Source: Streptomyces sp. NBC_00510
GTDB lineage: Bacteria > Actinomycetota > Actinomycetes > Streptomycetales > Streptomycetaceae
DNA: 64,000 bases
Direction of reading: 5' to 3'
Assembly (NCBI GenBank): GCA_036013505.1
Contig: CP107851.1
Coordinates: 124,001 to 188,000, forward strand
Part shown: in pieces, positions 991 through 39,436 of the stretch
How the letters are laid out: each line of letters starts with the position of its first letter
How positions within the stretch are numbered: the stretch's first letter is position 1
Translations under genes and position numbers: made by a program
The notes under the pieces: generated by a model
What the model was told of the DNA's origin: nothing
What the model saw: only the letters and a program-made list of their open reading frames with translations
Database searches by the model: none

Positions 991-2424
991 TCAGACGAGA
1001 GGCAGGCCAGTGATCGCGCCGATCATCTCGGCGGCGCGGGTACTCGCGTCACTGGGGCGCAGCCGTCCGGCGAGGACAGCCTCGAGCATCGCGTGGAGCT
1101 GTGCGGAGACGCGAGCGTAAGGGGGTGTGGACGGACGCACAACGGCGTGCTCGAGTATGGCCCCCGTTACTTTGAGGAACTGCGACTCACCGGCGGCTTG
1201 GTCGAGCGCGGTACGTCGTGGGGCGATCTGCCAAGTCGACTGGGACATTCGCTCCATGGCTTCGACAGACGTGACGGCGCGGAGCACCCGCCTGGCCAAC
1301 TGCGGAGATGATGCCTGCCTGAAGATTCCATAGACCATACCTCCGGCGAGGGCGGCCGAGTTGCCGCGTGGCCCGGCGGGCATGGCGATGAACCCGAAGT
1401 GGTCGAGTACCTCTTCCGTGGTCAGCCCGGACGCCGAACCGAGGGCCGGGGCGTCGTAGCTGCCTCCGAAGGCCAGACAGGCCTTGCCGTGCGCGAGCTG
1501 CTGAATCGGGTGATGACGCTCATAGGTGACCACCTCGGCGGGGATGATGCCCTCGTCCAGAAGCTGCCGTAGGAACGTCAGGCATTCGGTGGTCGCCGCC
1601 GTGTCCAAGGTGACGACGTCGTGGCCGAGGACGGTGGCCCCGTTCGAGGCGAGCAGGGACAGCAGGCAGTACGTCGCTGTCTCCCCCGCGCGGGAGCCGC
1701 CCGGCAGCGTCAACGGGACGGCATGGCCGCGCTCGGCCAGTGCCCGGCCGAGCGCGGCAAGCTCATCCCAGGTCTGCGGTGGTTCGTGTCCGACGGCAAC
1801 AAGATCGTCCCGCCGGTACCACAGCCCGGCGACGTCGGCCTCGGCCTGCACCGCGACGAGCTGGCCATCGAACCGGTTCGCCGACCGGAACGGCTCGACG
1901 AAGTCCTGGTCGTACTCGTTGCGGACCCACTCCGCATCGAGCTCCTCCAAAGTGGTCAGGAAGCCGGAGGATGCGAACTCGTGCACCCACACCGAGTCCA
2001 GGACCGCCAGATCGGGGCCTTGGCCTTCAGCAACGGTTCGCACCAGCGCCTGGCGCAGATCGGACAGACCTACCTGGACGACGTCCAGCGTGATGTCCGG
2101 CGGTGCGGCCTCCCGCAGGAGGGCTTCCCAGCTACCCTCCGGAACTATGACGCGGACCTCGCGGCGAGAGCCGTGCGGCGGCACCCAGTCAGGGTTCACG
2201 AAGGAGCCGTGCCGGCGGCGGCGTAGCACCACCCCTTCTTCGGCCAGCTCCGACAGAGCCCGGTTGACCGGGGTCCGGCTGATGTTGTATAGGGAACACA
2301 GCTCCTGTTCCGTGGGCAGGCGGCCCTCGGGACCGTACACTCCGTCGATGATCCCCTGCAGGAGCAGCGTTTTGAGCTGGACGTATACCGGCAGCCCCTG
2401 ACTCGGATCGATCGCCGGGCACAT
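991..2424 (-). CDS. GntR-type regulator fused to a sugar-binding-protein fold
   Basis: The 477-residue protein is a probable ligand-responsive repressor of the adjacent sugar operon. Residues about 10-77 form a GntR winged helix (LPTEQELCSLYNISRTPVNR, then the wing ending HGSFV). Residues about 85-477 resemble an extracellular solute-binding protein of ABC sugar importers, for example PDLAVLDSVWVHEFASSG and TWDELAALGRALAERG. There is no signal peptide or lipobox, so this fold should act in the cytosol as the effector sensor, replacing the usual UTRA or FCD domain. The ATG at 2424 has a strong AGGAGGA site. The gene lies 151 bp downstream of the glycosidase gene and may be cotranscribed. GntR/solute-binding fusions are known in actinomycetes; the ligand is not apparent. 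Confidence 0.85.
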   Translation of the reverse strand: MCPAIDPSQGLPVYVQLKTLLLQGIIDGVYGPEGRLPTEQELCSLYNISRTPVNRALSELAEEGVVLRRRRHGSFVNPDWVPPHGSRREVRVIVPEGSWEALLREAAPPDITLDVVQVGLSDLRQALVRTVAEGQGPDLAVLDSVWVHEFASSGFLTTLEELDAEWVRNEYDQDFVEPFRSANRFDGQLVAVQAEADVAGLWYRRDDLVAVGHEPPQTWDELAALGRALAERGHAVPLTLPGGSRAGETATYCLLSLLASNGATVLGHDVVTLDTAATTECLTFLRQLLDEGIIPAEVVTYERHHPIQQLAHGKACLAFGGSYDAPALGSASGLTTEEVLDHFGFIAMPAGPRGNSAALAGGMVYGIFRQASSPQLARRVLRAVTSVEAMERMSQSTWQIAPRRTALDQAAGESQFLKVTGAILEHAVVRPSTPPYARVSAQLHAMLEAVLAGRLRPSDASTRAAEMIGAITGLPLV

Positions 2425-10993: not shown

Positions 10994-11090
10994 CAAGACT
11001 CCAGCAGGCTGCCCCAGCCGAAGAGAGCGACGTCACCAGGCGACAACTCAGCCATCCGAACAGGGCGAACCTTGCCTGATGCGGCACTAG

Positions 11091-11109
11091 TAGTGCTTGG
11101 TCAGGTCGG
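11091..11109. repeat. Left terminal inverted repeat of the IS701-type element
   Basis: The 19-bp sequence TAGTGCTTGGTCAGGTCGG is the exact complement of 12514-12532. The target duplication CTAG precedes it at 11087-11090. Confidence 0.95.
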
Positions 11110-11201
11110 TATTGAGGTGGGTATGTCGCGGTGGCAAGTGGGGCAGGCGCCGGTCCAGGTAGCGAGGAGGATCTGCAGGTCACGGACGACCTGGTAGAGG
11201 C

Positions 11202-12467
11202 TTAGGCCGACGCCGCGTCTTTTGGGGCCCGCCCCAGTCGCTGCAGGGTGCAGAACGCATGGGCGACGGAGACGAGGGTGACGTGGTGGTGCCAGCCGTT
11301 CCAGGTCCGGCCCTCGAAGTGCGCCAGGCCCAGGGCCTGCTTCATCTCCCGGTAGTCGTGCTCGATGCGCCAGCGGAGCTTGGCGAGACGGACCAGGGTG
11401 GTCAACGCGGTGTCCTCGGGCAGGTCGGACAGCCAGAACTGGACCGGTTCCTTTTCACCCGCGGGCCACTCGGCCAGCAGCCAGCACGCCGGCAGCTCGA
11501 CACCCTCGGTGGCCTGCCGGATCTCACGTCCGGCGGGCCGGATCCGCAAGACAACGAACCTTGAGTAGATCCGCTTGACGCCTGAACGGCCGGTGCCGGG
11601 CCGCGATCCCTCACGCCACTGCACCGGCCGTGCCGCCGTCCGGCCTGCCTCGATGACCAGTTCCTTCACCGAACGGGCAGGCTTGGGGTATTTCAGCCCC
11701 GGTGGCCGACCGGTCCCGCAGTACGCCTCGGTGACCGGTGCCGCATCGCCCGGCTGGGCCGACAGCGTGCTGGAGATTCCCACCACGTAGTGCATGCCCC
11801 GCGCGTTCAGGCCAAGCCGAAAAGCCGCGGCATCGCCGTATCCGGCGTCCGCGATCGCCAGCGGCACATCGATCCCCCACGAGCGGGTCTCATCGGCCAT
11901 GTCCAGCGCCAGCTGCCACTTCTCGACATGGCCGACGTCCTCGGGGATGCCGCAGGCCGCACGGCGTGCAACCTTGTCCGGGTCCGCCTTCGGCGAGGAC
12001 GGATCCCAGGACGGGGGCAGGAACAGCCGCCAGTTCACGGCCGCCGAGGCATGGTCACGGGCCAGATGGAGCGAGACACCCACCTGGCAGTTGGTGACCT
12101 TCCCGGCGGTACCGGTGTACTGCCGCGACACACACGCCGAGGCGTTTCCGTCCTTCAGGAAACCAGTGTCGTCAAAGACCAGCACAGTGGGCCGGATCAC
12201 CGATTCCATCTTCCACGCCAGACGAGCCCGGATATGAGCCGGATCCCAAGGGCTGGTGGTGATGAAGTGGGCCAGCGCCTGCCGGTTGCCGTCCTCTCCC
12301 AGCCCGGCGGCCATCGGCTCGACCGACTTGCGTCGCACGTCAGTCATCAGACCACGCAGATACACCTGCCCCCACCGGCGCTGATCCTTGCGCGCGAACG
12401 GCTCGAACACCTCCGCCGCAAACGCCTCCAACCCACCACGCACCACAGCAACTTCGTCCGGAGTCAC
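11202..12467 (-). CDS. IS701-family DDE transposase
   Basis: This 421-residue transposase cuts and rejoins the ends of the surrounding element. Candidate catalytic acids are visible in order: TVLVFDDTGFLKDG (first Asp), LAIADAGYGD (second Asp) and LRWRIEHDYREMKQALGL (Glu), the last in the helix typical of this family. The RQYTGTAGKVTNCQVGVSLH segment is also characteristic. The frame is intact from ATG to stop. It is the only gene of the element. IS701 members with a CTAG target are common in Streptomyces. Confidence 0.95.
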   Translation of the reverse strand: MTPDEVAVVRGGLEAFAAEVFEPFARKDQRRWGQVYLRGLMTDVRRKSVEPMAAGLGEDGNRQALAHFITTSPWDPAHIRARLAWKMESVIRPTVLVFDDTGFLKDGNASACVSRQYTGTAGKVTNCQVGVSLHLARDHASAAVNWRLFLPPSWDPSSPKADPDKVARRAACGIPEDVGHVEKWQLALDMADETRSWGIDVPLAIADAGYGDAAAFRLGLNARGMHYVVGISSTLSAQPGDAAPVTEAYCGTGRPPGLKYPKPARSVKELVIEAGRTAARPVQWREGSRPGTGRSGVKRIYSRFVVLRIRPAGREIRQATEGVELPACWLLAEWPAGEKEPVQFWLSDLPEDTALTTLVRLAKLRWRIEHDYREMKQALGLAHFEGRTWNGWHHHVTLVSVAHAFCTLQRLGRAPKDAASA

Positions 12468-12513
12468 ACCTTCCCAACGCCAGACCAGCCCAACAAGACA
12501 CGCAACAACTCAG

Positions 12514-12532
12514 CCGACCTGACCAAGCACTA
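12514..12532. repeat. Right terminal inverted repeat of the IS701-type element
   Basis: CCGACCTGACCAAGCACTA mirrors the left end without mismatch. The second CTAG copy follows at 12533-12536. Confidence 0.95.
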
Positions 12533-12581
12533 CTAGCTTGTACAAACCCCGGTCGACGGTCTGGTCGGACGGCTGATGCAT

Positions 12582-12594
12582 TACCGTGCGGGCA
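12582..12594 (+). promoter_or_regulatory. Possible -10 box giving a leaderless start
   Basis: TACCGT (12582-12587) ends 6 bases before the ATG at 12594 and could act as a -10 box producing a leaderless mRNA, a common arrangement in actinomycetes. A matching -35 is not clear, and the bases beyond about 50 upstream belong to the inserted element. Confidence 0.25.
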
Positions 12595-15500
12595 TGGCTC
12601 AGGAGACGAACGGACTGCAGTATCCCTGGGTACGGCGCATCTACTCGCCGGAGTTCCCTCCGCGGCTTGGGGCCACGGGTTGGCTCGACCCGATGGCTCC
12701 GCGGCAGCGCAATTCCGAGGAGCCCGCGCTCGCATCTCTCGGCGACCTCGAAGCTCTCCAGGTGATCGTGCTGCTCGGTCCGGGCGGTATGGGCAAGAGC
12801 GCCGCCCTGAGCGACGAAAAGAATCGCCTCGGCACCGCGACACATCTGATTGATCTGGGGGCCCCGCATGTCGCCCAAGCCCCCGAGATGCATCTGGGAA
12901 AGGCGTTGCCGCCGACTGAGGCGGCGCCTTGGCATGTGCTGCTGGACTCCTTCGATGAGGAGGCTGGGCGGGACGTGATGGTGGCGCTCGGTGCCTGGCT
13001 GGACAAGTTGGAGGATCCCGCTCGTGCTGCCCTGCGTCTTCGCGTGGCGAGTCGCCCAGGGCTGGTGGCCCAGAACGACCGCCTGTTGCGCCTACTGCGG
13101 CAGGTATTCGGGGATGAAGCTGTGCACATCCGTGTCCTGGCCCCGTTGACGCGCCATGATGTGGAGACGGCCGCGCAGGCAGCCGGTGTGCGGGATGCCC
13201 ATGCGTTCTTGACCGCAATCGAACGTCGTGCGCTGGTCGGACTGGCCAGTGTGCCGCAAACCCTTCAATCTCTCCTGGAGGCTGAGAAGTCGGGTGCGGC
13301 GTTGCCCGACACTGCGGCTGATGCCTATAGGCGGCAATGCGAGGCGCTGTGCGATGAACTGAACTATGGACGGCAGCGGCGGGCAGGCAGGATGCAGTCG
13401 GTACGTTCCGCCGAGCGGTTGGCGGGAGCGCTGCAGTTTTGTTCCTCCGCCCATGTGCTTGACGACGCGCGTGGTCGCATTGCTTCCTCCGGAGGGGTGG
13501 AACTCTTCCGGCTCACGTCTGGTTCTGCACCCGAGTTTGAAGGGGTGGCCGGTGGGTGCACGGAGGACGTGCTGCGTTGGCTGACGGATACCGCTCTGCT
13601 GCGTCCCGACGGGGCTGTGCCCGGGCGATGGGCTTTCCAGCAGCGGGATGTCCGCGAGTTCCTCGCGGCGGAGTTCCTGCTGCGTCGGCGCGTTGCCGAT
13701 GATGTTCTGCTGTCACTGCTTCTGGTGGGTGACCAGGACGCGAGGCATGTCCCGGCTGTGCACCGCGAGGTTGCCGGCTGGGTTGCTCTGAAACGCGAGG
13801 TGGTCTTTGACCAACTCCTACGGCATGATCCGCTCGCACTGCTCGTGCACGACCTGCCTGTCAGCCGACGTGCGCAGGTCGTGGCTTCGTTGGTCGCGGA
13901 GACGATGCGCCGCGACACCGACATCCTGCCGCAGCAGCCCCCGACAGTCCTCAGCCGCCTGGACCATGAAGGTCTGACCGAACAGCTCGTGGACCTCCTG
14001 TCCCCGCCCGATCCACGGCAGCCAGCAACACGGCCGGATTACCGGCGGCTGCAGGCGGGCTTTGCCTTGGCGAAGGCTTGCCCCGGCCGGGTTTCGGGCC
14101 CTACGGTTCTAGACCTGGCAGAAGATGACAACATTTCTCCCGGGTGGCGGGCGGAAGCTCTCAGCCTCCTGCCAGATCAGCTGGAGAAGGACATCCAGGA
14201 TCGGCTGGTTGGCCTGGCCGCGTCAGGCCAACCGGAGGTAGCCGCGGCCGCTGTGCTGCGGCTGTGGCCCGCGCACATGACCACCAGCGTGATGCTTGAT
14301 GCGCTGGCGAGGAATTCGTGGGGCGGTATTTCGGCAGCACGGATCACCGATGCCCTGGGCCCGGGCGATCTGGACAGCGTCCTCGACTGGCTGACCACCC
14401 AGCTCAGCGGGGAACGTCACGGACAGGTCATCAGTGCGATGCATCTGTTGCTCCGCTGGGCACTGCAGCACTTTGTGCCGCTGCCTGATGCTGATGCGAC
14501 GCTGAAGGACACGGCGCCAGGGTCGGACTCGGAGCCACTCGACCCGCGGCTGGTGACGATCTTCGCCAAGGCTGTTTCCCGGCCTCAGTCGTTTGACGAG
14601 CCTCTGGCGATCAACCCTTTCGTTGCCTTGAACGACGCCCCGAAGTGGCGCCGTCGGCTGGCAGCACAGGTCCTCGCCGCCGTCGACGATGACGACGTCC
14701 CCGAGCTGTTCTACGGACCTATCCCGCTCTTCCCGTCCTCGGACAGCCTGTACTGGGCGCGCCAAGCAGCCGCAGAACTCCCCAAGGTCCTAGACGACCG
14801 GCTGGGGTATCCGCTGCGCCTACCCATGCCGCCGCCGGAGGACCTCGCGGACCTGGCCGCGATACGTCAAAGCGACGAGGTGCTCGCCGAACGCACGCGG
14901 CCCTGGTTCACTCCCGCCGCCGTGCAGAAGCCAGTCCACGAGAGCGAGCCGACGCCCGACCCGGAGCATCTCAGGGCAGCCATCCAAGCCGCCGCCTCCG
15001 AGCTCTCCTCTGAGAACCTCCTCCGCCACTGGGACAGGTTGGTCCGTCTGCTCCACCCTCCAACGGAGCACGGCGCGCCCTGGGAATGGCGCCTGAACCT
15101 GGCCGAGACCTCGGCCTACGATGGGCTGGACGAGCCGATGCGGGCTGCACTCCAGCGTGTGGCCGACCGGGTGCTGGTCGACGCGGAACCCTTCACCGCC
15201 CTGGGCGTGGGCCCATCGGGTGTCTACCTCACAGATGTTCCGGTCCTGCAGGCTCTGACGTTCACGCAGGACCCACCGGAACTTGCTTCGGAGCAGTGGG
15301 CTGGCCTTGCCCTCGCGTTGACTGTATCGACGCGGTTAAACGGTGACGACGACGAGCTGCGGTTTCAGCTTCTGCGACAGTGCGTCAGCCGGGCGGGCGA
15401 GAGCTTTCGCGCAGTAGTGGCACCGGCCCTGGGGCAGTTGCGTGACGCGCAGGCACTTCTCCACACGGTCTATCGGCTTCTGCTCTTGGGGGATGCACCA

Positions 15501-16847
15501 CTGACGGCTGCCTTGTTGGCATGGGACTCGTCCTTCGCCCGCTCTCTGGGAACCAGACGACCCGTACTCGAGGCCTTCGCCCGGTCCTCGGAGCCAGACG
15601 CGCTTGCCCATCTCCGCGCGATTGCCGGCCAGGATCCGCGGGGCATGGCTGCCCCTCAGCTGCAGACTTGGGCTACGACGGCCGATCTCCTGCTGCTGTA
15701 CGGGGACCAGGACGATTGGCCGGCCCTGTGGACAGCGATAACCTCCTCTTCCGCGATCACGGCAGCCTGGGCCGAGTCAGCGGACCCGATGCCCCATCGC
15801 CTGCTCATGTTCAACCTCCCCCGCAGCATGCACTGGCCGAAGGCCTACTACGTCCTGGAACCGGCCGAAGCCGGCCGCCTGTACGACCTCCTCCACGCTG
15901 AGGGGCACGTCACGTATCCGATGCCCGGGCAACGCTTCCCCGTCAGTCGTCACCCCGGCGTCGCCCGCGCTGCACTGAACAACCTACTTCCCGAACTCAT
16001 CGCCAGACGCGTCACTCCGGACGCGGTCACCGAGCTCCGCCGCCTCAGCTCCGCGCACCCCGATCATCCCGGGCTGCGGAGCATGGCCGCCGAGCACGCA
16101 CGAGCCGTCGCGGCCCTGGGCGCTCCCATGAGCTGGAAGGAATTCGACGAACTCACCACTCACAAGGGCGCCCGGCTGATTCACAACCGTGAGGATCTCC
16201 AGCGGCTGGTCTTGCAGTGCCTTGCGGAACTCGACAGGCAGATCGGCGATTCACGCGGCTGGGCCCCGCTGCTGTGGAACCAGATCCGACGTCACGCCAC
16301 GCTCCGCTGGCCGATCTGGGAGGAATCACTGAGCGACTTTGTGCGGAATTTCCTGGAGAACCGCCTCAAGGTCGACTACCAGGTGATCAACCGGGAAGTC
16401 GAGATTCAGCCTAGCGATATAGAGGGCAAAGTCCTCGACATCCTCATCCAGGCCTTCGACCCAAACCAGCCGGATACCGACGCTCTTGCCGTGGTGATCG
16501 AGGTCAAGGGCTGCTGGAACCCGGAAATCAAGAACAGCCTGTCCAGCCAGCTCGCCCGCGGCTACCTCGAAGGCCACCCGAACTGGGCCGGAATCTTCCT
16601 CGTCGCACACTTCGGCCACGACCACTGGCACCAACCCATGCTGCGAAAGCGTCACAAAGCTCCACAGTCACACACCGCAGCCAGCATCCGCGAGGAGCTC
16701 CATACGCAAGCCGAGCAGGAGCGCAACAACGGCTACCTAGTCGACGCCGTGGTTCTCGATTGCAGCCTCCCCACACCATCCCCACATGCCAAGCCTCGCA
16801 GCAACAGAACGCGACGCTCCCCCGCCCCGGACACAGCCCCTTCCTAA
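12594..16847 (+). CDS. STAND-type ATPase with C-terminal PD-(D/E)XK nuclease, probable defence protein
   Basis: The 1417-residue protein combines an N-terminal NTPase, a very long helical middle and a C-terminal nuclease fold. The Walker A is GPGGMGKSA (residues about 62-70); a Walker B-like strand VLLDSFDEEAG follows near 115. The middle, roughly 350-1250, is helical-repeat in character. At the C-terminus DTDALAVVIEVKGCWN gives the D, E, K of a PD-(D/E)XK site (about D1296, E1303, K1305), followed by SLSSQLARGYL and GIFLVAHF, which recalls nuclease modules of other defence NTPases. Such proteins sense a phage component and then cut nucleic acid. The usual Avs order is effector first; here it is last. 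A start at 12576 is also possible. It stands alone between the IS and the decayed PRTase gene. Confidence 0.7.
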   Translation: MAQETNGLQYPWVRRIYSPEFPPRLGATGWLDPMAPRQRNSEEPALASLGDLEALQVIVLLGPGGMGKSAALSDEKNRLGTATHLIDLGAPHVAQAPEMHLGKALPPTEAAPWHVLLDSFDEEAGRDVMVALGAWLDKLEDPARAALRLRVASRPGLVAQNDRLLRLLRQVFGDEAVHIRVLAPLTRHDVETAAQAAGVRDAHAFLTAIERRALVGLASVPQTLQSLLEAEKSGAALPDTAADAYRRQCEALCDELNYGRQRRAGRMQSVRSAERLAGALQFCSSAHVLDDARGRIASSGGVELFRLTSGSAPEFEGVAGGCTEDVLRWLTDTALLRPDGAVPGRWAFQQRDVREFLAAEFLLRRRVADDVLLSLLLVGDQDARHVPAVHREVAGWVALKREVVFDQLLRHDPLALLVHDLPVSRRAQVVASLVAETMRRDTDILPQQPPTVLSRLDHEGLTEQLVDLLSPPDPRQPATRPDYRRLQAGFALAKACPGRVSGPTVLDLAEDDNISPGWRAEALSLLPDQLEKDIQDRLVGLAASGQPEVAAAAVLRLWPAHMTTSVMLDALARNSWGGISAARITDALGPGDLDSVLDWLTTQLSGERHGQVISAMHLLLRWALQHFVPLPDADATLKDTAPGSDSEPLDPRLVTIFAKAVSRPQSFDEPLAINPFVALNDAPKWRRRLAAQVLAAVDDDDVPELFYGPIPLFPSSDSLYWARQAAAELPKVLDDRLGYPLRLPMPPPEDLADLAAIRQSDEVLAERTRPWFTPAAVQKPVHESEPTPDPEHLRAAIQAAASELSSENLLRHWDRLVRLLHPPTEHGAPWEWRLNLAETSAYDGLDEPMRAALQRVADRVLVDAEPFTALGVGPSGVYLTDVPVLQALTFTQDPPELASEQWAGLALALTVSTRLNGDDDELRFQLLRQCVSRAGESFRAVVAPALGQLRDAQALLHTVYRLLLLGDAPLTAALLAWDSSFARSLGTRRPVLEAFARSSEPDALAHLRAIAGQDPRGMAAPQLQTWATTADLLLLYGDQDDWPALWTAITSSSAITAAWAESADPMPHRLLMFNLPRSMHWPKAYYVLEPAEAGRLYDLLHAEGHVTYPMPGQRFPVSRHPGVARAALNNLLPELIARRVTPDAVTELRRLSSAHPDHPGLRSMAAEHARAVAALGAPMSWKEFDELTTHKGARLIHNREDLQRLVLQCLAELDRQIGDSRGWAPLLWNQIRRHATLRWPIWEESLSDFVRNFLENRLKVDYQVINREVEIQPSDIEGKVLDILIQAFDPNQPDTDALAVVIEVKGCWNPEIKNSLSSQLARGYLEGHPNWAGIFLVAHFGHDHWHQPMLRKRHKAPQSHTAASIREELHTQAEQERNNGYLVDAVVLDCSLPTPSPHAKPRSNRTRRSPAPDTAPS

Positions 16848-17178: not shown

Positions 17179-17411
17179 CGAGGATTGCGATCATCGCGCA
17201 CCACACATGCACACGGCAGGCAAACCCCGCCATGGTCTCCGCCCCGCTGCTGACAGCAGGAAATGCAGCCACAGCCCCGGCTCGCGTCGCCGGGCGGCGC
17301 GTTTGTGGGGCCCCGGGCGCGCCAGGCCGGGCGGGCTGTCAAATCCGTCGCGGCGCGGCGGCAGAAGCTGTCAGCATCAGTAAGACGATCACGAGGGCTG
17401 GGGGTATTTCG

Positions 17412-20400
17412 ATGGCGACGGTGCAGCAGCCCACTTCCGCGCAGCTGCGAAAAGTGCAGTGGAAGTTGATCGACCGGGTGTTCGCCCGTTACTCGACCAA
17501 GTCGCTGCTGGAGGTGTTGGAGGCTGCACTAGCCTCCCCGGGCTGCTCACGCTTCCATGATCATCTGTTGTTGGGGTGGACCCGCGTCCTGCGCACGGCC
17601 CCGCACGCCGGAACTGAGGCCGGCGCCAGCGACCTGCCGGCAATGATGCAGGCCCTGATGGGTGCCGCGCCCGGGCGCGGCACGACAACCGAGGCCGAAC
17701 CGAACGATCCGCGTGCGCTGGTGCGTTTCGAGATCGCAGGGCAACGGTTGCTGGTCCATCCCGGAGAGCTCGATCATCCCCTTCCTTTTCTGCGCGGGGC
17801 GCAGCTGACCGCACTTGCAGTTGATGACCAGTTGATCGCGGTGCACGGGTTCGCCTTGACCGACGTGCTCGAGCTGGTGCTGCACTACACCGACCATGCC
17901 GTCACCGCGCTCGCGCCGTCCTGGCCAAAGGAATACACGGACCGCGCCCCGGATGACATCGCGTGCGGGATCGCCCCCGGCGAGGTGGAGGCCGCCCGTA
18001 CGCTCGTCGGCCTGGACCCGGCGGTACTGGCTGGCCGGTGCCGAGAGCCGGAGCGGGCCCGGCGGGCGCTGGAGTGGATGACCGCGGACCTGGCCGGACT
18101 GCCACTGCGGTACCACCCGGCCGGACGGCTGCTGGGCCCGGTCCTGGCCGTCCGGGCTCACGGCCGCCGGCGCATGGTCCCGGTCTCTGTCGCCCTGGAC
18201 ACCTTTGCCGCGGCAGCTGCCCGCCTGATCGCCGACGTCCCTGACCAGGACGCCGCCGAGGAGCGGCTTCAGGAGCTGACGGTGCATCGCACCGCGCAAC
18301 TGCTCGGCCTGACCGAGGCTCCTACCCGGCTCAGGAACGTGGAACTGATGTCCGCGCCGGACCTGCGCTACGACATAGCGGTTGCCAGTGCCCTGGGCCG
18401 GGGCCTGTCCAGCAGGATCGAAAAGGCCCGCGCCGCGCTGCCCCCACCGGAGACCAGGCGCGGTCGGTTGGTCGTCTACGGCGGTCCCCTCGCCCTTGGC
18501 CCCGAACTCGTCACGGACACCGTCTACCTGCATGTCGAAGAGCTCGCCGACGTCCTCGCCGGCGCCGAGGGCAACCCGGCACTACTGGCGTGGTTCGTCG
18601 CGGAGCTGACCAGTCATCCCGGCGTTGCCGGGATCTTCCACCGCGATCCGTTGGACGCCTGGGATGCCTGGCGGAGCACGGGCACGCTGCTGATGCCCGG
18701 ACCGGACCGGCAGGAGGTCGTCGTCGTTCCTCCGGCAGGGTTCGATCCGTCGTGGAGGTACGCGTCCGCCTGGGCGCGGTTCGACGACGTGCTGGCCGCT
18801 GCCGGGCTGCCCGGCGGGGTGCACTGGCGTTCCGCCCGGATGGCCGACCCCGACCCCGGCGTTCCCGGACAGCACGCTGATGTGGTGTACCCGGGCAGCA
18901 ATGACACCGCTGGGCTGGTGGTGCGGGTCAGTACGGTCCCGCCGCTGGCGGTCGTGGCGAGCCCATCCTGTGACCCCGGCACTGTCCTGGGCCTGGAGGA
19001 CATGGCTGGCCTGGCGGACAGTATTCGCACCACCTTGGCTGCTTCCCCGGTTCTGGCCGGCCACATGGCGCTGCCCGACGGTGCTCCGGTCGTCATCACA
19101 TTGACCGAGACTTCGGGTTCCCTCCAGGCCCCCTTTCCAGAGCCCGAGGAGGCCGACGGCGACGGCGAGGATCGGGACCCTGCAAACGCGCCGGCCAAGC
19201 AGCTGCCGGTCCGGGTTGCCACCGACCCCGCCACCGCGAGGATCGGCATCGAACTCGACGCGCGACTGTTGACCACCTTCACCGGCGACGGGCACGCCGG
19301 GCATCAGGTCCTCGGCCAGCTGCTGCACCAGCTGACCGACCGGATCCGCCACGGCCGCGATGCCGGACCAGGCACCAGCCTCGAGGAGTTCGCGGCCGCC
19401 TGGGACGCCGCGCACCCGGTGCTGCGCTTGACGACCACCGCCACCTACTGGCCCGCTGTCGCTCCCCGCTACACCCTGCCGCGCTCCGACCACCTGCACG
19501 CCCGCGCCCGGCGCACCGCGGCCGCCGCCGTCCGCGACGCCGGCGTGCCGGCCGGGACCTGGCACGGACCGGACGCCTACGCCAGGGGCGGACCCGGCGA
19601 GAAACTACTGCACGCCCTGGAGGCCGAACTCGGCCAGCAGATCCAAGCCCACGAACCGCGACTGGTCACCGAGCTGGCACGGTACCTGAACGCGGCCTGG
19701 GCAGAACGCACCCGCGGAATGCACGAGGCGATGGTGAATCTTGCCGCGCCCTGGGCTGCGAACTGGGAACAGGAAGCAGGCCGACGCCAGGTGGAAGCCG
19801 CCACCGCCACCTCGGCCCTGCAGCTCCTCCTTCAACACGCGATCGTCCACCCGCCCGCCGGTGACTGGACGGCGGACATGGTGGCAGTCGCAGACCTGGT
19901 CGCCCTGGCCGAGCTGGTCCTGCACTGCGGCACCACCGCCGTCGCCGCCTCCAGGGGTCTGCACGACCTGCATCTGGCGATCGACCCGAGCGGCGCGTTC
20001 ACCCTCACTGAGCAATCCCAGGACAAGGAGCAACCCGCCTACGAGGGGACCGGGCCGACCCACCTCGGGTTCGACGTCGACGCCTACCAGCATGCCCGGC
20101 ACAAGCGCTTCCTCGCCCGTTCCCGCACCGCCGAGCCCGATGCGAACGACTCGTCCGCCGACCCGGCGGCCCTGCTCGGCGCGTCTGCGCGTACTCCGGT
20201 CCCGTTTGCGCCGCCGCGCTTGCCTCCTGGCAGTCCGTTGGCCCAGGCCGACCAGCTCCTTCATCAGCACTGGGGATTCGGCTTTGCTGCATTGCACGCG
20301 GTGCTGGCCACCGCCGCCGACTGGCCCACCGGCTCTGACGGCATCGCCAGCGTCACCCCCGAGGCCCTGGCGGCCGAGGCCGCCAGGTGGTCTGGGCTGC

Positions 20401-21161
20401 CCGACGCCGATATCGAAGCCGCGGTCGTCCGGCTGCGCCTCCACCCGGCCAACGCTGCCCCCGCCCACGCACACGCCTACACCGAGGTCGAACGCCGTAC
20501 CCGGCTCACCACCCATCCCCTCATTGACCACAACGGCAAGCTGCTGCTCCTGCCCTGGCTCCTCACCAACACCCAGGACCTGTTCGGCACCTACCTCGAC
20601 GAAGGCCGGCTCCCCCACCCCGACCTGCCCCAGCCCGTAAAGAACGCCCTCAGCCGCCATGGCCAGCGCCTCGACAAGCAACTCGAATCCGACATCGAAG
20701 CCGTCGCTCACAACCTCGGACTCCCTCACCGCAGCCGCCTGCTGGAGAAGACCGCTGCCCAGCACGGTATCCCCGACCTGACGGGCGAGATCGACCTCCT
20801 CGTCGCCGACCCCACCACGGCCAGGCTCTGGGTCCTCGAAGCGAAGAACCCCGAAGGCGCCGTCGCTCCCCACAACGTCCGCCAGCACATCCAGAAGTTC
20901 CGCGGTTACCAGCGCACCCTGCTCACCAAAGCCGCCACCATCCGGACCCACACCACCGCAGCCGCCCAACTCTGCGGGGCGGACACCAAAGACATCGACT
21001 GGACCGTGATCCCGCTCATCGTCACCTCCGCCATCGAGCCTGCCGCCTTCCTCGCCGACCCACAGGTCGCCTACACCACCGCAGAGCTCCTCCCCCAGGT
21101 CCTGGCCGACCCGCGAAACCCGCACCCCGGCTGGAACGACCCCCAGGACCAGGCACCGTGA
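17412..21161 (+). CDS. Giant hypothetical protein with C-terminal PD-(D/E)XK nuclease motif
   Basis: The ATG at 17412 (MATVQQPTSAQLRKVQWKLI) is chosen after a G-rich site; the frame stays open upstream to 17232. The 1249-residue product has no Walker motif, signal or membrane segment. Most of it is not recognisable: an N-terminal helical part, a central alpha/beta region and an acidic linker near 580-600 (EPEEADGDGEDRD). The C-terminal 130 residues carry LTGEIDLLVAD (D1128) and WVLEAKNPEG (E1143, K1145), a PD-(D/E)XK nuclease site, with a following helix NVRQHIQKFRGYQ. It is encoded just after the STAND nuclease gene on the same strand and could belong to the same or a neighbouring defence unit. 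A role in cutting foreign DNA is inference. Confidence 0.6.
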   Translation: MATVQQPTSAQLRKVQWKLIDRVFARYSTKSLLEVLEAALASPGCSRFHDHLLLGWTRVLRTAPHAGTEAGASDLPAMMQALMGAAPGRGTTTEAEPNDPRALVRFEIAGQRLLVHPGELDHPLPFLRGAQLTALAVDDQLIAVHGFALTDVLELVLHYTDHAVTALAPSWPKEYTDRAPDDIACGIAPGEVEAARTLVGLDPAVLAGRCREPERARRALEWMTADLAGLPLRYHPAGRLLGPVLAVRAHGRRRMVPVSVALDTFAAAAARLIADVPDQDAAEERLQELTVHRTAQLLGLTEAPTRLRNVELMSAPDLRYDIAVASALGRGLSSRIEKARAALPPPETRRGRLVVYGGPLALGPELVTDTVYLHVEELADVLAGAEGNPALLAWFVAELTSHPGVAGIFHRDPLDAWDAWRSTGTLLMPGPDRQEVVVVPPAGFDPSWRYASAWARFDDVLAAAGLPGGVHWRSARMADPDPGVPGQHADVVYPGSNDTAGLVVRVSTVPPLAVVASPSCDPGTVLGLEDMAGLADSIRTTLAASPVLAGHMALPDGAPVVITLTETSGSLQAPFPEPEEADGDGEDRDPANAPAKQLPVRVATDPATARIGIELDARLLTTFTGDGHAGHQVLGQLLHQLTDRIRHGRDAGPGTSLEEFAAAWDAAHPVLRLTTTATYWPAVAPRYTLPRSDHLHARARRTAAAAVRDAGVPAGTWHGPDAYARGGPGEKLLHALEAELGQQIQAHEPRLVTELARYLNAAWAERTRGMHEAMVNLAAPWAANWEQEAGRRQVEAATATSALQLLLQHAIVHPPAGDWTADMVAVADLVALAELVLHCGTTAVAASRGLHDLHLAIDPSGAFTLTEQSQDKEQPAYEGTGPTHLGFDVDAYQHARHKRFLARSRTAEPDANDSSADPAALLGASARTPVPFAPPRLPPGSPLAQADQLLHQHWGFGFAALHAVLATAADWPTGSDGIASVTPEALAAEAARWSGLPDADIEAAVVRLRLHPANAAPAHAHAYTEVERRTRLTTHPLIDHNGKLLLLPWLLTNTQDLFGTYLDEGRLPHPDLPQPVKNALSRHGQRLDKQLESDIEAVAHNLGLPHRSRLLEKTAAQHGIPDLTGEIDLLVADPTTARLWVLEAKNPEGAVAPHNVRQHIQKFRGYQRTLLTKAATIRTHTTAAAQLCGADTKDIDWTVIPLIVTSAIEPAAFLADPQVAYTTAELLPQVLADPRNPHPGWNDPQDQAP

Positions 21162-21671: not shown

Positions 21672-23723
21672 CTACGCTGGAGCGGCGGTGTCGCCCTCGG
21701 TGACCTCGTCCGGTGAAGGTGCTTCCTCCGCGGTGTCCTTGCCTGGTTGCATGGCCGCCTGGACGTCGCCGATGAGGTTGATTGTGGTGATCCGTGGTCG
21801 CTGTCCCAGGCCGTTCAGCGCGATGATCGAAACGAGTCCCCAGAGGATGGCGGCCAGGCCCGCTGCGGTGTCCCGTCCGGATTCTCCGGTCCCCGCCCAT
21901 GCCATCGCGACCGTACTCAGCCCCCACAGCAACCATGTCAGCCGGGCCGCGAAAGCGTGAAGCACGGTGGACATCACCAGCGCCACAATGCCGAAGCCGA
22001 GCCACAGGACATGCGCGGCCGAGGGGGTCAGGGGCAGGTCAGCGGTGTGAGCCTGCAGGAAGCGCGTGACCGGTTCGTTGATGGTGCGTATCGCTAGGTA
22101 CATGTGGTGATCGGCATGGAGCGTTCCGGTGACTTTGACCAGGCCTGCCGCGATGGCGTACAGGCCAGGTATGACCAGGGGTATCAGGCAGATCCACATC
22201 CACACGGGGGCGTCGCGCCATCTGCCAGACAGGACGGTCTCGAGGTCGTCGGCGCGGCGGTCGATCCATTGCGGGTCCGTCACCATGAGCCAGGGCCGCT
22301 TCTTGGGAAGCCCGGTGGATTGGTCCGGGGACTGGCTCGGTGCTCGCAGGTCCGCGGAAAGGTCGGTAAAGGCTGCGCGGGTGGTGCGCTGCAGAGCGGG
22401 GTCGTAGCCGGCAACGGTCACAACGAAGAACAAGATCATCCACGGCACGGTGAGCAGCCACCACCATGGACCCCAGGACAGGCCGGCCTGCACCGTGGCT
22501 GCTGCCCCGGCAGTAGCCAGCGCGGCGGTCAGGCAGCGCAGTACACGGGGCGCAAGGGTGGCATAAGTGACCGACAGCGGTCGCGGCAGGGGTTCGTTGC
22601 GTGCCGTCGCGCGGACCCACGGCCACAGGGCAGCAATCAGGTGCCAGGGCTCGGCAACCAGGACAAGTCCGGCCAGGGCGATCGGGTCGGTGATCAGGAT
22701 CCAGCCGGGCGTGTGCACGGTGAGGGCCACCACATGGAGCGAGGCACCTCCGGCGGCTATCAGGCAGCCGAGGGTGCGGCCCAGCAGCGTCGTGGCGGTG
22801 TACCAGCGCTCGCTGCGCCGCACCGTGATGTCGGTGGCCGCGGTGGAGGCCGCCAGGCCCATGTGCGCCGCCGCGTCGCTGCGCAGCGCGTGGCCGTGGT
22901 CGAGCAGAGTGCGGGCAGTACGCAGAGCCTGGGCAGGGTCAGCCAGAAAGGCCTCCTGGTCCAGGTCCGGTCCGAGGGGCTCCGGTTCCTCTGCGGCCTG
23001 CTGGTCCGTGGGGTCGACCAGACGGAGCAGGGCGAGTTCTTCCTCCAGTTCAAGGCAGCGCCGGCGTGCGGCGGCAGCGAGTGCCTCCGCCTCGTCTCGG
23101 GCTTGTCGGGCCTCGACGAGGTCGTGTTCGGTCTGCTGGAGCTGCTCGATGGCGCGGGCGAGGTTCTCCTGGGCCTGATCGGCATTCGTGCTGTCCGGCG
23201 AGGCGGCGGCGAGCTGTTCGATCTGCAGGCGCAGCTGGGTGTTGAGTGCGGACAGCAGGACCACGAGTTCCTGGGCTGTGGCCAGGTCCTGCGCCAGACG
23301 GTGGCTGTTGGCGTCGGCCTGGGCCAGGCGGCCGCGGCTCTCGGCGACATACCGTGCCGCGGGTGCAGCGCCCAGCGGTGGCCGCCGTACTGCCACGTCT
23401 GCACTCGGCGGGTGGGTCGCCCGCTCCCACAGCCGCATGGCCCGCGTCTTGGTCGTCTCGAGCTGGCCCGGTGGGGCGGTGGCCTGGACCAGTTTCAAGA
23501 CCACGTCCATCGGCGGGACCGTGCCCGACAGATGGTTGCCGATGCTCGAGCGGGACCAGTTGAGCTCCTTGGCAAGGTCGTCGTAGGTCTTGCCCGACTG
23601 CTCGCGCAGCTCGCGAAGGAACTCGGCTAACACGCGGGCCTGGGGTGTCTCCGCCCGGATCGGCGCCGGCTTGCGGCCCCGCTTGCCCCCACCTGCCATC
23701 CACTCCCCCATCAGCGCATTCAT
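21672..23723 (-). CDS. HTH, coiled-coil and multi-pass membrane protein
   Basis: About 683 residues. The N-terminus has an XRE-like helix-turn-helix (KTYDDLAKELNWSRSSIGNH), then a long coiled coil (residues about 130-240, LEQQIEQLAAAS-type heptads, AQDLATAQELVVLLSALN, LEEELALLRL), and the C-terminal half has roughly seven membrane segments (for example WWWLLTVPWMILFFVVTVAG and MWICLIPLVIPGLYAIAAG). A short acidic tail ends EVTEGDTAAPA. Starts at 23723, 23711 and 23699 are possible; 23723 follows AGGA closely and 23699 follows GGGGAG. DNA binding tied to the membrane suggests a signalling or anchoring role. It is divergent from the CoiA-like gene, and TGTCC/GGACA repeats lie between them. Confidence 0.7.
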   Translation of the reverse strand: MNALMGEWMAGGGKRGRKPAPIRAETPQARVLAEFLRELREQSGKTYDDLAKELNWSRSSIGNHLSGTVPPMDVVLKLVQATAPPGQLETTKTRAMRLWERATHPPSADVAVRRPPLGAAPAARYVAESRGRLAQADANSHRLAQDLATAQELVVLLSALNTQLRLQIEQLAAASPDSTNADQAQENLARAIEQLQQTEHDLVEARQARDEAEALAAAARRRCLELEEELALLRLVDPTDQQAAEEPEPLGPDLDQEAFLADPAQALRTARTLLDHGHALRSDAAAHMGLAASTAATDITVRRSERWYTATTLLGRTLGCLIAAGGASLHVVALTVHTPGWILITDPIALAGLVLVAEPWHLIAALWPWVRATARNEPLPRPLSVTYATLAPRVLRCLTAALATAGAAATVQAGLSWGPWWWLLTVPWMILFFVVTVAGYDPALQRTTRAAFTDLSADLRAPSQSPDQSTGLPKKRPWLMVTDPQWIDRRADDLETVLSGRWRDAPVWMWICLIPLVIPGLYAIAAGLVKVTGTLHADHHMYLAIRTINEPVTRFLQAHTADLPLTPSAAHVLWLGFGIVALVMSTVLHAFAARLTWLLWGLSTVAMAWAGTGESGRDTAAGLAAILWGLVSIIALNGLGQRPRITTINLIGDVQAAMQPGKDTAEEAPSPDEVTEGDTAAPA

Positions 23724-23724
23724 T

Positions 23725-23790
23725 TGTCCTGGACATACCCAGCAATGTCCAGAGTCGACCTGCGCGAACCCTCCGCGGGCGGTGTGGACA
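23725..23790. promoter_or_regulatory. TGTCC/GGACA repeats in the divergent promoter
   Basis: A palindrome TGTCC-T-GGACA sits at 23725-23735, immediately before the likely start of the HTH-membrane gene, with further copies TGTCC at 23746-23750 and TGGACA at 23785-23790. The spacing suggests an operator shared by the two divergent genes, perhaps bound by the HTH protein itself. Confidence 0.4.
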
Positions 23791-23853
23791 ATTCCCGGCC
23801 GCCGCAAGCTCAAGGGGTACCGCTCAACCCCACCGCTTTCCGGGAGCCGACTG

Positions 23854-25065
23854 ATGCGTACCACCGCCTCCACAAACCGCCGTTCCTCCACCACCCGACA
23901 CCCTGTCCACGGCTCCTCGGCCCGCCGCCGCATGCGCACCCGCCACGGGGACATCGGCATCGACACCGCCACGAGTCTGCTCATCGACCTTCACCGCACC
24001 CCGGACAGCGCCGGTGCTCTGCCGCGCGGTCGCGCTGCCGGCCGCTACAGCTGCCTGTCCTGCGGGCGGACGCTGGAGCTGTGCGGCCCCCGCGACCACG
24101 CCGACTTCACCGCCCGCTTCCGCCACACGCGCCTGGAGCCCGATCGCTGCCCGGCGCGACCCGAGCACCTGGCCCGCGTGCGCTCTGCTGTCGCCGACGC
24201 ACAATCGCTCGCCCACGAGCTGACCGCCTCCGTGCCCACGGTACGGATCCAGCTGGCCGTCACCGCCGCGGAACCGGGCGCGATACCCGTACTGTCACTA
24301 CGGGTGCACGCCCCGTCCGGGATCAGCGTGATCCACCTCCCCCACGGCGAACTCGCCGGCCACCAGGCCAGCCGGATCCTTGCCGTCCGGGACCCTGATG
24401 TCCGGCAGTGGGTCCTGTTCAACCGTCATGCCCCCGCCCATTACCGCACGGCCGGCCAGATCCACGTCCGCACCCGGCGGCAAGACCACCACATCGACAA
24501 GATCACCCCCACCCCCGGCCAGCGACGACTCGCCCAGTCCCACCTCGCCGTGGCATGGCGCGACCATGGCACGCTACTCCTGCCGTTCGGCGGGCACCCC
24601 GTCACCCATCAACCGCGCACGGGCGAGAACTGGAGCGGACCGGCAGCGTCCTGGCAGCAAGACTGGAAGATCAGCCACCCCAGGCCCGCCGACGGCGCTG
24701 TCTGGTGGGGCCTGCTTCCGTTGCCCCTGCGCGCGGTGGTCGCACCCACCCTGCTTGGCGCAGCGACCACTGCGATGGCAGAGCTGGAATCAGCCCAAAC
24801 CGGCCGCGAGGCCTACCGGCGCAGCAAGGCCCGCGAACGCTACGCCCTCCAGGCCAGCAGCCGCCCCGTCAGACCACAACAACTCCACCTCCCGATAGCT
24901 ACCGCCACCGCAGCCGCCACGGAACCGGGTCCCCAGGCAGCCGGCGAGCATCCTCCGACCACTGCCGGCTCGGCGCCCGAACTCCGAGCCATCGCCGTCC
25001 GGCAAAGTCGGCCGCGCCGGTGGCGTCTCTGGCGAAGCCTCCTGGCCCGGCTACGCCGCCGCTGA
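23854..25065 (+). CDS. CoiA-like hypothetical protein, 403 aa
   Basis: The ATG at 23854 follows GGGAG by seven bases. Near residue 65 lies RYSCLSCGRTLELCGPRDHA, then FRH: a cysteine-pair plus FxH pattern like that at the start of competence protein CoiA and related nuclease-linked proteins. The middle (VRIQLAVTAAEPGAIPVLSL, HIDKITPTPGQRRLAQSHL) is globular, and the last 90 residues are basic and low-complexity, ending RRWRLWRSLLARLRRR, which could bind nucleic acid or membrane. It is divergent from the HTH-membrane gene with about 130 bp between. No catalytic site is certain, so function is open. Confidence 0.6.
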   Translation: MRTTASTNRRSSTTRHPVHGSSARRRMRTRHGDIGIDTATSLLIDLHRTPDSAGALPRGRAAGRYSCLSCGRTLELCGPRDHADFTARFRHTRLEPDRCPARPEHLARVRSAVADAQSLAHELTASVPTVRIQLAVTAAEPGAIPVLSLRVHAPSGISVIHLPHGELAGHQASRILAVRDPDVRQWVLFNRHAPAHYRTAGQIHVRTRRQDHHIDKITPTPGQRRLAQSHLAVAWRDHGTLLLPFGGHPVTHQPRTGENWSGPAASWQQDWKISHPRPADGAVWWGLLPLPLRAVVAPTLLGAATTAMAELESAQTGREAYRRSKARERYALQASSRPVRPQQLHLPIATATAAATEPGPQAAGEHPPTTAGSAPELRAIAVRQSRPRRWRLWRSLLARLRRR

Positions 25066-26253: not shown

Positions 26254-26931
26254 TCAGTCGGCGTCGGGATGGCCGGACTCCTCGAGAAGCCGAGCCGCCA
26301 GGTCGTCGGCCCACTGCACAGCCCAGGAGCGCAGCGCGGCAATCGTGGTGTCGTCGAGGCCGTAGGCGGCGAAGGCTTCGTCGTCGGTCCACTCGGCGCC
26401 GGCGAGGTTGGCCTGGAGGTCTTCTCGTTCGAAGCGGCCCCGGGCGTGTCGGCGGCCGAACTCTTCCAGGTCGGTGGTGGACCAGCGCCGGGAGGCAGCG
26501 AACACGTCGATCAGGTCCCGAGGGGCGCCCCGGTCGCCGAGGGCGCGCACTTTGGTTCCGATCACGTCTTCCTCGGCAAGGACGGGCCCGTAGGGACTGT
26601 GGGTGATGGGTCGCCAGAAGATCTCTTTGAGGATGTCGACCTCGCACTCCTGCCTCGTGGCGGGGTCGGACACGGTGAAGCGGGCGGACAGCGGGGCGAT
26701 CTCCAGTGACTGCACGTGCCAGCCGCGTGCTTCCAGGCCGGTGCGGAGTGTGGTGGCGATGTCGGTCATGGGTGCCGGGTTCTGCGTGGCGACGTCGAGG
26801 TCCTGGCTGGGGCGGTTGACCAGGCGGTGGGCGCGGACGGCGTAGCCGCCGGTGAGGACGAGCGGGTAGGGGGAGCCGAGGGCGATGACGTCGGCCAGGA
26901 GCCGCGCGTGCAGCTCCGGCATGTCCGTCAC
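26254..26931 (-). CDS. AbiEii-type nucleotidyltransferase, probable toxin
   Basis: This 225-residue protein belongs to the AbiEii/AbiGii-like nucleotidyltransferases, toxins of type IV toxin-antitoxin and phage-exclusion systems. Visible core: PLVLTGGYAVRAH (the GG-containing loop), RPSQDLDVATQN (DxD metal ligands) and ECEVDILKEIFW (third acid), then RALGDRGAPRDLIDVFAASR, which is also family-typical. A GTG at 26931 is taken as start since it overlaps the upstream stop as GTGA (26928-26931); an ATG follows three codons later. The gene is translationally coupled to its upstream partner, which would be the candidate antitoxin. Confidence 0.85.
   Translation of the reverse strand: MTDMPELHARLLADVIALGSPYPLVLTGGYAVRAHRLVNRPSQDLDVATQNPAPMTDIATTLRTGLEARGWHVQSLEIAPLSARFTVSDPATRQECEVDILKEIFWRPITHSPYGPVLAEEDVIGTKVRALGDRGAPRDLIDVFAASRRWSTTDLEEFGRRHARGRFEREDLQANLAGAEWTDDEAFAAYGLDDTTIAALRSWAVQWADDLAARLLEESGHPDAD
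26425..26461. repeat. 37-bp segment repeated exactly at 45392-45428
   Basis: These 37 bases inside the nucleotidyltransferase gene recur without mismatch at 45392-45428, where they directly abut the duplicated helicase upstream region. The copy marks a junction in the rearranged second locus. Confidence 0.9.
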
Positions 26932-27320
26932 GCGGCGGCCCGGGCGCGGTCGGCGAGCTGGGGGAACGTCTCCTCCCACACGGCGCGCACCGTGCGTCCG
27001 ACCAGGCCACGCAGGACGGGCCACATCTGCACGAGGAGATCCCGGTTGAGGTAGAGGGGCAGGTCGTCGTGCAGTCCTTCGTGCAGGACAGTGCGGTACA
27101 GGCCTATGCGCTGGCGGGGCTTTTCCAGGTCGTACGAGGTCATCCCCGACCAGGCGACATGCAGCGGCAGATCCACGACCCCGCGGGCAGGCCCGCGCAG
27201 CTCGTCCAACGAGGCCGGCAGACGCCGCCGGAACTTCTCCCGGTACAGCGCCAGGTCCTCGGCGTACACGCCGGACGGGTCTGCGGTCCCCGGCACCGGG
27301 GGCTGCGAGCTGGCTGCCAT
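26928..27320 (-). CDS. Partner of the AbiEii-type toxin, 130 aa
   Basis: The small cytosolic protein begins MAASSQPPVPGTADPSGVYA and is largely helical (EDLALYREKFRRRLPASLDE, LYRTVLHEGLHDDLPLYLNR, WPVLRGLVGRTVRAVWEETF). Its stop overlaps the start of the nucleotidyltransferase by 4 bp. Genes of this kind precede AbiEii-type genes in several Streptomyces loci, so it is the likely antitoxin or adaptor. It lacks the winged-helix appearance of classical AbiEi, so any repressor role is unproven. Confidence 0.65.
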   Translation of the reverse strand: MAASSQPPVPGTADPSGVYAEDLALYREKFRRRLPASLDELRGPARGVVDLPLHVAWSGMTSYDLEKPRQRIGLYRTVLHEGLHDDLPLYLNRDLLVQMWPVLRGLVGRTVRAVWEETFPQLADRARAAA

Positions 27321-27835: not shown

Positions 27836-28085
27836 GCGGGGTCTCCGTTCACGGTGCTGCAGGACCCTACAGGGGGGTTCGGTTGCGTTCCCGTGTCCGC
27901 TTCTGGGACGCGCGCGACACCCGAGACCGGCGGACGAGCCGCAGGCCGGCCCGCGGCCGGCAACGGGCCGGTACGGTGTCACACCCGGACGCCTTGGCTC
28001 ACCCACGTACATGAGCAGTGCGTGCGGGCAGGAACAAGGTGCCGGCGGCGGTGGCTGTCCCAGCGTCGCAAGAGGAGGAGCAGGC

Positions 28086-34559: not shown

Positions 34560-34679
34560 ATCGCCCCCTTCAGCCTGTCCCGAGCAGCATGACGCCTCCG
34601 GCCGGGGCAGGAAGGCACAATGGCGCAACCCGTCTACCGCTTCCCTCCTCGACCGAGTCTCAGTCGCTAGTTCCGCGGC

Positions 34680-38567: not shown

Positions 38568-39053
38568 CACTGCCCTCACCCGTGCCCCACCCTCGTCCGT
38601 TACCCCAGCATTCCCAAGCCGCCCCCGTCCTCCGATCCTCGCGTACCGTGCCGCCGCGAGCTTCCGTTGAGCCGTCACCACTCGGGTCTCCCCCCGTGCG
38701 TCGCGGATGGTTTCGACGGCCCCCAAGGTGACGCGTTCGGACAGAACGTCGGATCCGTCGGTGAGGTTGCGGATGGCCAGCCTCACCGCTTCGTCCGGGA
38801 AGTTCGCTGTGCGTGATATCCAGCCTAGAGAAGTCGACGCGCTCTCACCGGCGTAGGTCACGGATTCGGCGACCACACCCGCGTAGCCTGTCGGTCGGGC
38901 CGGCATCGAACCCACGCCCGAGGACACGAAGCCCACGCCACACACCCCGCGCGCCGAGCGGGAGACCGGAGAGCGGGTGGTTCGCAGGGTGGGGCCGGAA
39001 GCCTTCCGGTTCCTGCTCAAGGCAGGTTTCGCCGGGCCGGCCGACATCAGGGC
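38568..39053. other. 486-bp region upstream of the TIR gene
   Basis: The TIR frame continues open here and between 38640 and 38830 encodes protein-like sequence (WISRTANFPDEAVRLAIRNL). It could be an N-terminal extension of the TIR protein or the remnant of a separate gene. No ribosome site decides between these. Confidence 0.35.
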
Positions 39054-39350
39054 GGGATCAAGTACATCGGTCACGGTCTGAGGTTCGGGATCCGCCACTA
39101 CCAGTGGCACTGCGAAGTCGCGGTGTCTGCGTTCGCGGAGAAAGCAGACGTACCCTCCACGGCGCGGGATCGCGTGTACGTGGGCAACCTGTACGTCAGA
39201 TGCGGGCTCGGGCCACTGAACCATCTGCCCAACACCGCGCGCAACGCCCGTCTGACCGAACTCAGAGTCCGGGCGTTCGCCAGCGTTATGCGTGAACTCC
39301 TGCCCTTCCTGCTCGGCCCCGACCGCGACACCCTCATGCGCAAAGCCTGA
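39054..39350 (+). pseudogene. Unidentified gene, C-terminal remnant
   Basis: The frame reads GIKYIGHGLRFGIRHYQWHC, then TARDRVYVGNLYVRCGLGPL, and ends LLPFLLGPDRDTLMRKA. It looks like real protein but has no start codon that fits, and the upstream part of the frame is junk. I do not recognise the family. Confidence 0.35.
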
Positions 39351-39436
39351 GCAGCGGCCGGGCCGCCGCCTCACGATGGTCGCCAGGGCTTGACTCGGAC
39401 TTCCCGTGTAGGCAACGAACACCGCCTGGGCGGGGT

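Follow-up and report, generated by a model that had tools for sequence, protein, structure and literature searches.

In this study, we analysed a 64,000-nucleotide stretch of the genome of Streptomyces sp. NBC_00510 (hereafter the window; bases 124001-188000 of a single-contig genome of 10.15 Mb), and in it a gene for a large NACHT-type STAND protein with a predicted PD-(D/E)XK-type nuclease domain at its C-terminus (Table 1). The open reading frame (ORF) is intact and runs on the forward strand from the first ATG at 12576 to 16847 (1423 aa). A start at the ATG at 12594, six codons further on, gives a protein of 1417 aa, the same length as the database copy P0001, and residues are numbered from this second ATG. 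An insertion sequence (IS) element on the opposite strand stops 57 bp upstream of the ATG at 12594; the promoter of the gene may lie within this element or may have been displaced by it. The closest homologues bearing an organism name, as found in a search of genome contigs, are from Streptomyces.

Table 1. Features of the NACHT-STAND gene, the IS element upstream of it and relatives with EAD2-like tails (positions are those of the window unless a locus is named)
Feature	Position	Strand	Remarks
NACHT-STAND gene, C-terminal PD-(D/E)XK-type nuclease (predicted)	12594..16847	+	1417 aa; alternative ATG 12576
NLR-type NACHT module, then helical/winged-helix modules, residues about 2-505	12597..14108	+	
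Walker A GPGGMGKS, residues 62-69	12777..12800	+	
Walker B strand HVLLDSFDE (D118, D121, E122)	12933..12959	+	
Q350 (His in relatives)	13641..13643	+	alignment of L024 set
Helical-repeat region, residues about 506-1190, presumed sensor	14109..16163	+	conservation; HEAT_2 in homologues
C-terminal PD-(D/E)XK-type nuclease domain (likely), residues about 1195-1395	16176..16778	+	AlphaFold2 model, VIA-align
E1268, conserved RE pair, strand 1	16395..16397	+	
D1282, predicted metal-binding aspartate, strand 2	16437..16439	+	
E1303-V-K1305, ExK motif, strand 3	16500..16508	+	
Q1319...Y1324, helix after ExK strand	16548..16565	+	
IS element, DDE_5 transposase 11202-12467	11087..12536	-	perfect 23-bp terminal inverted repeats
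EAD2-type relatives, each preceded immediately by a TIR-EAD2 or nucleosidase-EAD2 gene	L113:2342-7425, L112:5363-10686, L115:3875-9967		

The original prediction, made from the sequence, had described a STAND ATPase with a Walker A motif GPGGMGKSA near the N-terminus and a strand LLDSFDE, and both motifs are present. They are conserved beyond chance: G65, G67 and K68 are identical in 29 of 32 divergent homologues and D118, D121 and E122 in 31 of the 32. In a second set (the L024 set; 729 proteins matched at E<=1e-20, the 120 listed being aligned; the two sets having at least one protein in common) the Walker lysine is identical in 118 of 120 proteins, with gaps in the other two. The acidic Walker B strand and the P-loop lie in a NACHT/NLR-like fold, which places the ATPase, more specifically than predicted, in the NACHT clade. 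Structure models were made of the protein on either side of residues 621-1124, and the N-terminal part aligns with the animal NLRs NLRC4, NLRP3 and NOD2 from residue 2-3 onwards and over about 500 residues, and a Foldseek search with the STAND part matched animal NLRs at 8e-8 and Avs3/Avs4 (PDB 8dgc and 8dgf) at 6.6e-5 and 8.2e-4. The P-loop NTPase expected in the first 300 residues is thus found there as an NLR/STAND fold. The 900 residues of helical repeats that had been proposed to follow hold only roughly, in that the NACHT and associated helical modules reach to about residue 505 and the repeat-like region spans about 506-1190. Columns of this region are less conserved than those of the NACHT module and the nuclease (0.32-0.38 vs 0.42-0.51 in alignment A2), and conservation drops further only in the tail and over the initial 40 residues. 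Pfam HEAT_2 matches six of the 32 homologues, the window protein not among them.

At the other end of the protein, the motif VVIEVKGCWN, with an aspartate (D1282) upstream and the QLARGYL helix behind it, is present as had been read, and K1305 was correctly numbered as the PD-(D/E)XK lysine. The catalytic aspartate, the ExK motif and the following helix with Q1319 make up the PD-(D/E)XK pattern. E1268, D1282, E1303, K1305, Q1319 and Y1324 are identical in 32/32 divergent homologues, the catalytic residues are likewise identical in all 120 aligned proteins of the L024 set, and residues 1201-1340 form the most conserved stretch of the whole protein. An AlphaFold2 model of residues 1125-1417, computed from 32 alignment rows (predicted local distance difference test, pLDDT, 89.8; predicted template modelling score, pTM, 0.78), has the order alpha-beta-beta-beta-alpha-beta (in model numbering helix 119-137, strands 144-152, 155-164 and 174-182, helix 191-201 and strand 207-215). 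It places E1268 on strand 1, D1282 on strand 2, E1303 and K1305 on strand 3 and Q1319 and Y1324 on the helix, as in PD-(D/E)XK enzymes.

The best evidence that the nuclease is the effector of the window protein comes from relatives in which the C-terminal slot is filled otherwise. The nuclease pattern is found in 14 of 16 homologue loci of the order (from 15 genomes, the window not being among them) and is missing from L059 and L060. L059, assigned to Streptomyces dioscori through the identical database protein P0152, is 41% identical to the nuclease-bearing L068 over 1299 aligned positions, and the alignment stops at the nuclease boundary. A search with the L059 chassis returned 61 proteins, namely 34 with a nuclease (including P0178 and P0198, which end inside it), 18 with an EAD2-like helical tail, three of about 2112 residues each with a second P-loop, and six short ones. 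L060 (4402-12057, reverse strand) encodes a 2552-aa relative in which about 1250 extra residues, with a second AAA/P-loop (P-loop at residue 1551), replace the nuclease. A hidden Markov model (HMM) built from the 18 tails alone and run at E<=0.01 over the open frames of the available loci matched loci of four genomes only (G291, G763, G213 and G720), all of the EAD2 type, and in three of them a second EAD2-tail protein is encoded directly upstream (E 4e-22 in G291, 1e-20 in G763 and 1e-24 in G213). The effector part of the G291 partner is of the TIR/SEFIR kind (Pfam TIR_2 9e-8 and EAD2 5e-9; PDB SEFIR 0.003), and the G763 and G213 partners are MTA/SAH-nucleosidase-like (PDB 5.7e-6 and 1.1e-7). 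The EAD2 regions of the G291 and G763 partners are 89% identical over 90 residues, whereas their effector parts cannot be aligned; the stop of the partner gene overlaps the chassis start in G291 and G763 and adjoins it in G213. In a chassis tree (FastTree only, 65 tips, P0209 and short rows excluded, EAD2-type and double-NTPase rows trimmed to the chassis prior to alignment), the 17 EAD2 types group together in one clade and the four double-NTPase types in another, with support 1.0 each, and both clades are nested within the nuclease-type tree. The nuclease is thus likely the ancestral occupant of the slot, which has since accommodated modules of at least two further kinds, and its exchange for an EAD2 adaptor with partner or for a second NTPase marks the slot as an effector slot. 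The reversed order that had been predicted, with a nuclease at the C-terminus, is supported by homologues, structure models and effector swaps alike.

Several points weigh against a nuclease effector on a NACHT switch. In a VIA-align comparison of the C-terminal model the best rows were PaqCI (7.7), BamHI (7.5), McrC (7.4), VC1899 (7.4) and Can2 (7.2), but Z stayed below 8 throughout and non-nuclease rows came near (Rep15:Rab3B complex chain 6.4, RAB43 5.0). Foldseek with this model against the PDB and BFVD gave nothing at E<=1e-3, small GTPases being among its top PDB rows, and neither Pfam nor a search with the nuclease profile against PDB sequences returned a nuclease match. For this reason the PD-(D/E)XK fold is graded likely, although unproven. 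In the NACHT module, Q350 occupies a position, which we take to be the winged-helix-domain histidine site, where 120 of 120 aligned L024-set relatives have His and P0008 has Ser; this histidine is a usual but not a defining NACHT feature. Among the swaps, G720 shows no visible partner and its chassis piece is short, the G213 chassis is interrupted by an in-frame stop further on, and the Pfam EAD2 model misses the chassis tail itself, though it matches the TIR partner. The nuclease-type neighbours join the EAD2 clade at a support of 0.66 only, so that the nuclease losses number one or two, and the swaps occur in a related chassis clade outside that of the window protein.

The middling structural scores would also suit a protein in which the C-terminal nuclease fold serves DNA binding or surveillance and the output differs, for example through recruitment of another protein by NACHT assembly, and the next gene downstream (17232-21161, forward strand, 1309 aa) does bear a weak NERD/PD-(D/E)XK-like C-terminus (GEIDLLV...LEAKN; Pfam NERD E 0.031). 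We regard this as unlikely, given that all catalytic residues are invariant in the aligned sets of 32 and 120, that typical effectors (TIR, nucleosidase) occupy the slot in relatives, and that the next gene, its own copies aside, stands at none of the homologue loci among the 116 loci compared and occurs in only 3/147 genomes of the order, its own included. A partnership with this gene was dropped on account of its rarity and its absence beside homologues. As evidence for a nuclease, the conservation of the catalytic residues is stronger than the structure scores.

The family to which the protein belongs is very large and NCBIfam (June 2026) touches it with two antiphage models. The window protein scores 138.1 bits against NF058535 (antiphage EruA; equivalog cut-off 1000) and 92.5 bits against NF058534 (antiphage HyoA; equivalog cut-off 1200), far under both cut-offs, so that function need not transfer from EruA or HyoA. 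The EruA profile matches it twice and in the same order (profile 9-358 in the NACHT module and 1071-1318 in the C-terminal part), HyoA matches it likewise with profile 199-589 and 1188-1395, and both models match 11/11 members of A1 and 31/31 of A5. Since both match at both ends, the reversed order seems to be a trait of the superfamily as a whole, two branches of which are labelled antiphage. The suggestion of a perhaps distinct family therefore stands as far as the layout departs from the N-terminal-effector order, and falls in that the protein is one member of this large family. L070, which scores highest of the EruA relatives seen (773.7 bits, profile 10-1318), retains D...ExK...Q...Y but is without the aligned R1267/E1268 pair. 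No protein above the EruA cut-off was found in 147 and 396 genomes, nor above the HyoA cut-off in 5. A literature search found no paper treating EruA or HyoA as antiphage proteins and no original description of them (one title naming EruA concerns an unrelated E. coli regulator), and titles and abstract openings gave no description of a C-terminal-nuclease NACHT family.

Homologues at E<=1e-30 occur patchily, in 16/293 genomes of the order, its own included. Relatives span several phyla, and some lie on plasmids typed conjugative; one plasmid-borne relative has toxin-antitoxin genes and a gene for a TIR-domain protein no more than 10 kb away. One aligned member of the 729-protein set bears a euryarchaeote name. 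In the control genome of Methanosarcina acetivorans the HyoA model gave a match below its cut-off, possibly a tractable member. A search of 50,697 phage records found no match to the protein, the window protein itself had no significant hit in Pfam or PADLOC, and a whole-protein PDB sequence search was likewise unhelpful.

The setting of the homologues leans towards defence. At E<=1e-10, 190 PADLOC families were matched by 100 neighbour proteins of the 16 loci and 8 by the controls, 97 proteins taken from 13 stretches elsewhere in the same genome set, a contrast that is weakened in that it counts overlapping models rather than proteins, the 25 families listed matching 2-4 of the 100 neighbours each; the same few proteins may account for most of the matches. 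Among these 25 of the 190 are models of Zorya, Druantia, BREX, Gabija, PARIS, Septu and Argonaute-associated systems. Neighbour genes were called with a filter on GC content at third codon positions (GC3; at least 150 aa, within 5.5 kb), the low-GC3 neighbour L066:14752-17346 was included manually, in the neighbour set only, and of 14 planned control stretches one proved nonexistent. Pfam, applied to the neighbours only, found Mrr_cat in 3/100 and phage integrase in 3/100.

An identical second copy of the gene lies at the mirror position, 136,576 bases from each end of the contig, whose terminal 6 kb on either side are inverted copies of each other at 99.98% identity, and mirror copies also exist for the last kilobase of the window and for the next gene. 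We therefore place the window, very probably and from spot-tested points only, within a long inverted repeat at the ends of a linear chromosome, a repeat which if continuous appears to extend beyond 188 kb. This position, a G175 homologue 4.8 kb from both contig ends and two copies in G048, one lying 100 kb from one end and the other, in opposite orientation, 8 kb from the other end, would accord with a regulator or DNA-repair/recombination factor of chromosome arms rather than a phage sensor. Such a role is very unlikely in view of the patchy occurrence, the spread of relatives over several phyla and onto plasmids classed as conjugative, and neighbours that match more defence models than controls do.

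Within 25 kb in the window lie AbiEii-type, TIR and AAA-TPR proteins. These are an AbiEii-like nucleotidyltransferase (26254-27320, reverse strand), for which an ORF upstream may be the partner, a protein combining AAA_16 and TPR (31821-34628, reverse strand) and a TIR_2-domain protein of 1071 aa (36273-39488, reverse strand; E 2.9e-19), the last two being candidate defence or signalling genes. The window further encodes a helicase with four HA-domain stretches (28011-30770, forward strand), a 770-aa ORF with an HTH_31 domain (21672-23984, reverse strand), in which inspection by eye shows a stretch resembling a coiled coil and a C-terminal half that is hydrophobic and may span the membrane, and a GntR DNA-binding domain fused with a solute-binding-protein domain (991-2424, reverse strand), near which there is a transporter permease gene.

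Taken together, the window protein is quite probably a single-protein antiphage NLR-like sensor of reversed polarity with a C-terminal nuclease effector. In such a protein the N-terminal NACHT module would be an ATP-driven oligomerisation switch and the helical repeats in the middle the sensor. The repeats would bind a molecule that comes from the phage or a host molecule changed by the infection, the NACHT modules would then assemble in their ATP-bound state, and clustering would activate the C-terminal PD-(D/E)XK effector, which may cut DNA of the phage, the host or both and so stop the infection. Switching between ADP and ATP, assembly and activation by clustering are proposed by analogy with NLRs, and a phage-sensing role is suggested by the antiphage label of EruA and HyoA and by the neighbours' excess of PADLOC matches over controls. 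Beyond this one protein, we lean towards a reversed-polarity NLR-like class, represented in numerous bacterial phyla and in one archaeal lineage or more, in which the C-terminus is an exchangeable effector port. By default this port would hold a nuclease in cis; in derived lineages a second NTPase would take its place, or an EAD2 adaptor that recruits a TIR or nucleosidase encoded immediately upstream. If this is true, a NACHT assembly can carry its effector output beyond the sensor repeats, at their far end, as well as at its N-terminal hub. A family of opposite order with natural swaps would make it testable how NACHT assembly activates an effector beyond the sensor arm, and nuclease, TIR and nucleosidase on one chassis would be natural chimeras for such tests.

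Among known systems, Avs3/Avs4 share the STAND fold, but the window protein fits animal NLRs better and its effector order is reversed with respect to Avs proteins, which usually carry their nuclease N-terminally. With its P-loop at residue 62 and its nuclease at about 1195-1395 it has neither the Avs nor the bNACHT layout. NLRC4, NLRP3 and NOD2 share with it about 500 residues of NACHT and helical modules; animal NLRs have an N-terminal death-fold domain, which the window protein lacks, its nuclease lying at the opposite end. EruA and HyoA are alike at both ends and in the same order, though the scores are far below the cut-offs. In the available text of PMC12169576 and PMC10952713 the STAND/NLR order is stated as effector, switch and sensor, and in that of PMC13092281 the tripartite layout with an N-terminal effector is 'typically' found; a classical STAND protein served by an N-terminal effector from another gene, with the C-terminal domain as an accessory, would follow this rule and is nevertheless highly improbable here, as there is no space before the P-loop, the structure aligns to NLRs already from residue 2-3 and the upstream neighbour is a transposase on the opposite strand. 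bNACHT25/32, as described in the part of PMC12169576 available, likewise combine a NACHT switch with a PD-(D/E)XK nuclease whose active site is required for protection, but they carry the nuclease at the N-terminus and the sensor at the C-terminus. The EAD2-like tails and adjacent EAD2-fused TIR or nucleosidase genes of chassis relatives agree with what the EAD principle predicts (PMC7159879, PMC8195603, as far as excerpted), whereas in the window protein the effector is fused in cis. EADs and effectors of STAND proteins are placed N-terminally in the excerpt of PMC8195603, which also describes predicted glycosyltransferase (GT4) effectors as often C-terminal on STAND modules, NACHT included, so that a C-terminal effector on a NACHT protein had already been suggested. 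The protein is a new member of an existing, little-described kind, and the proposed exchangeable C-terminal port would be a new variant.

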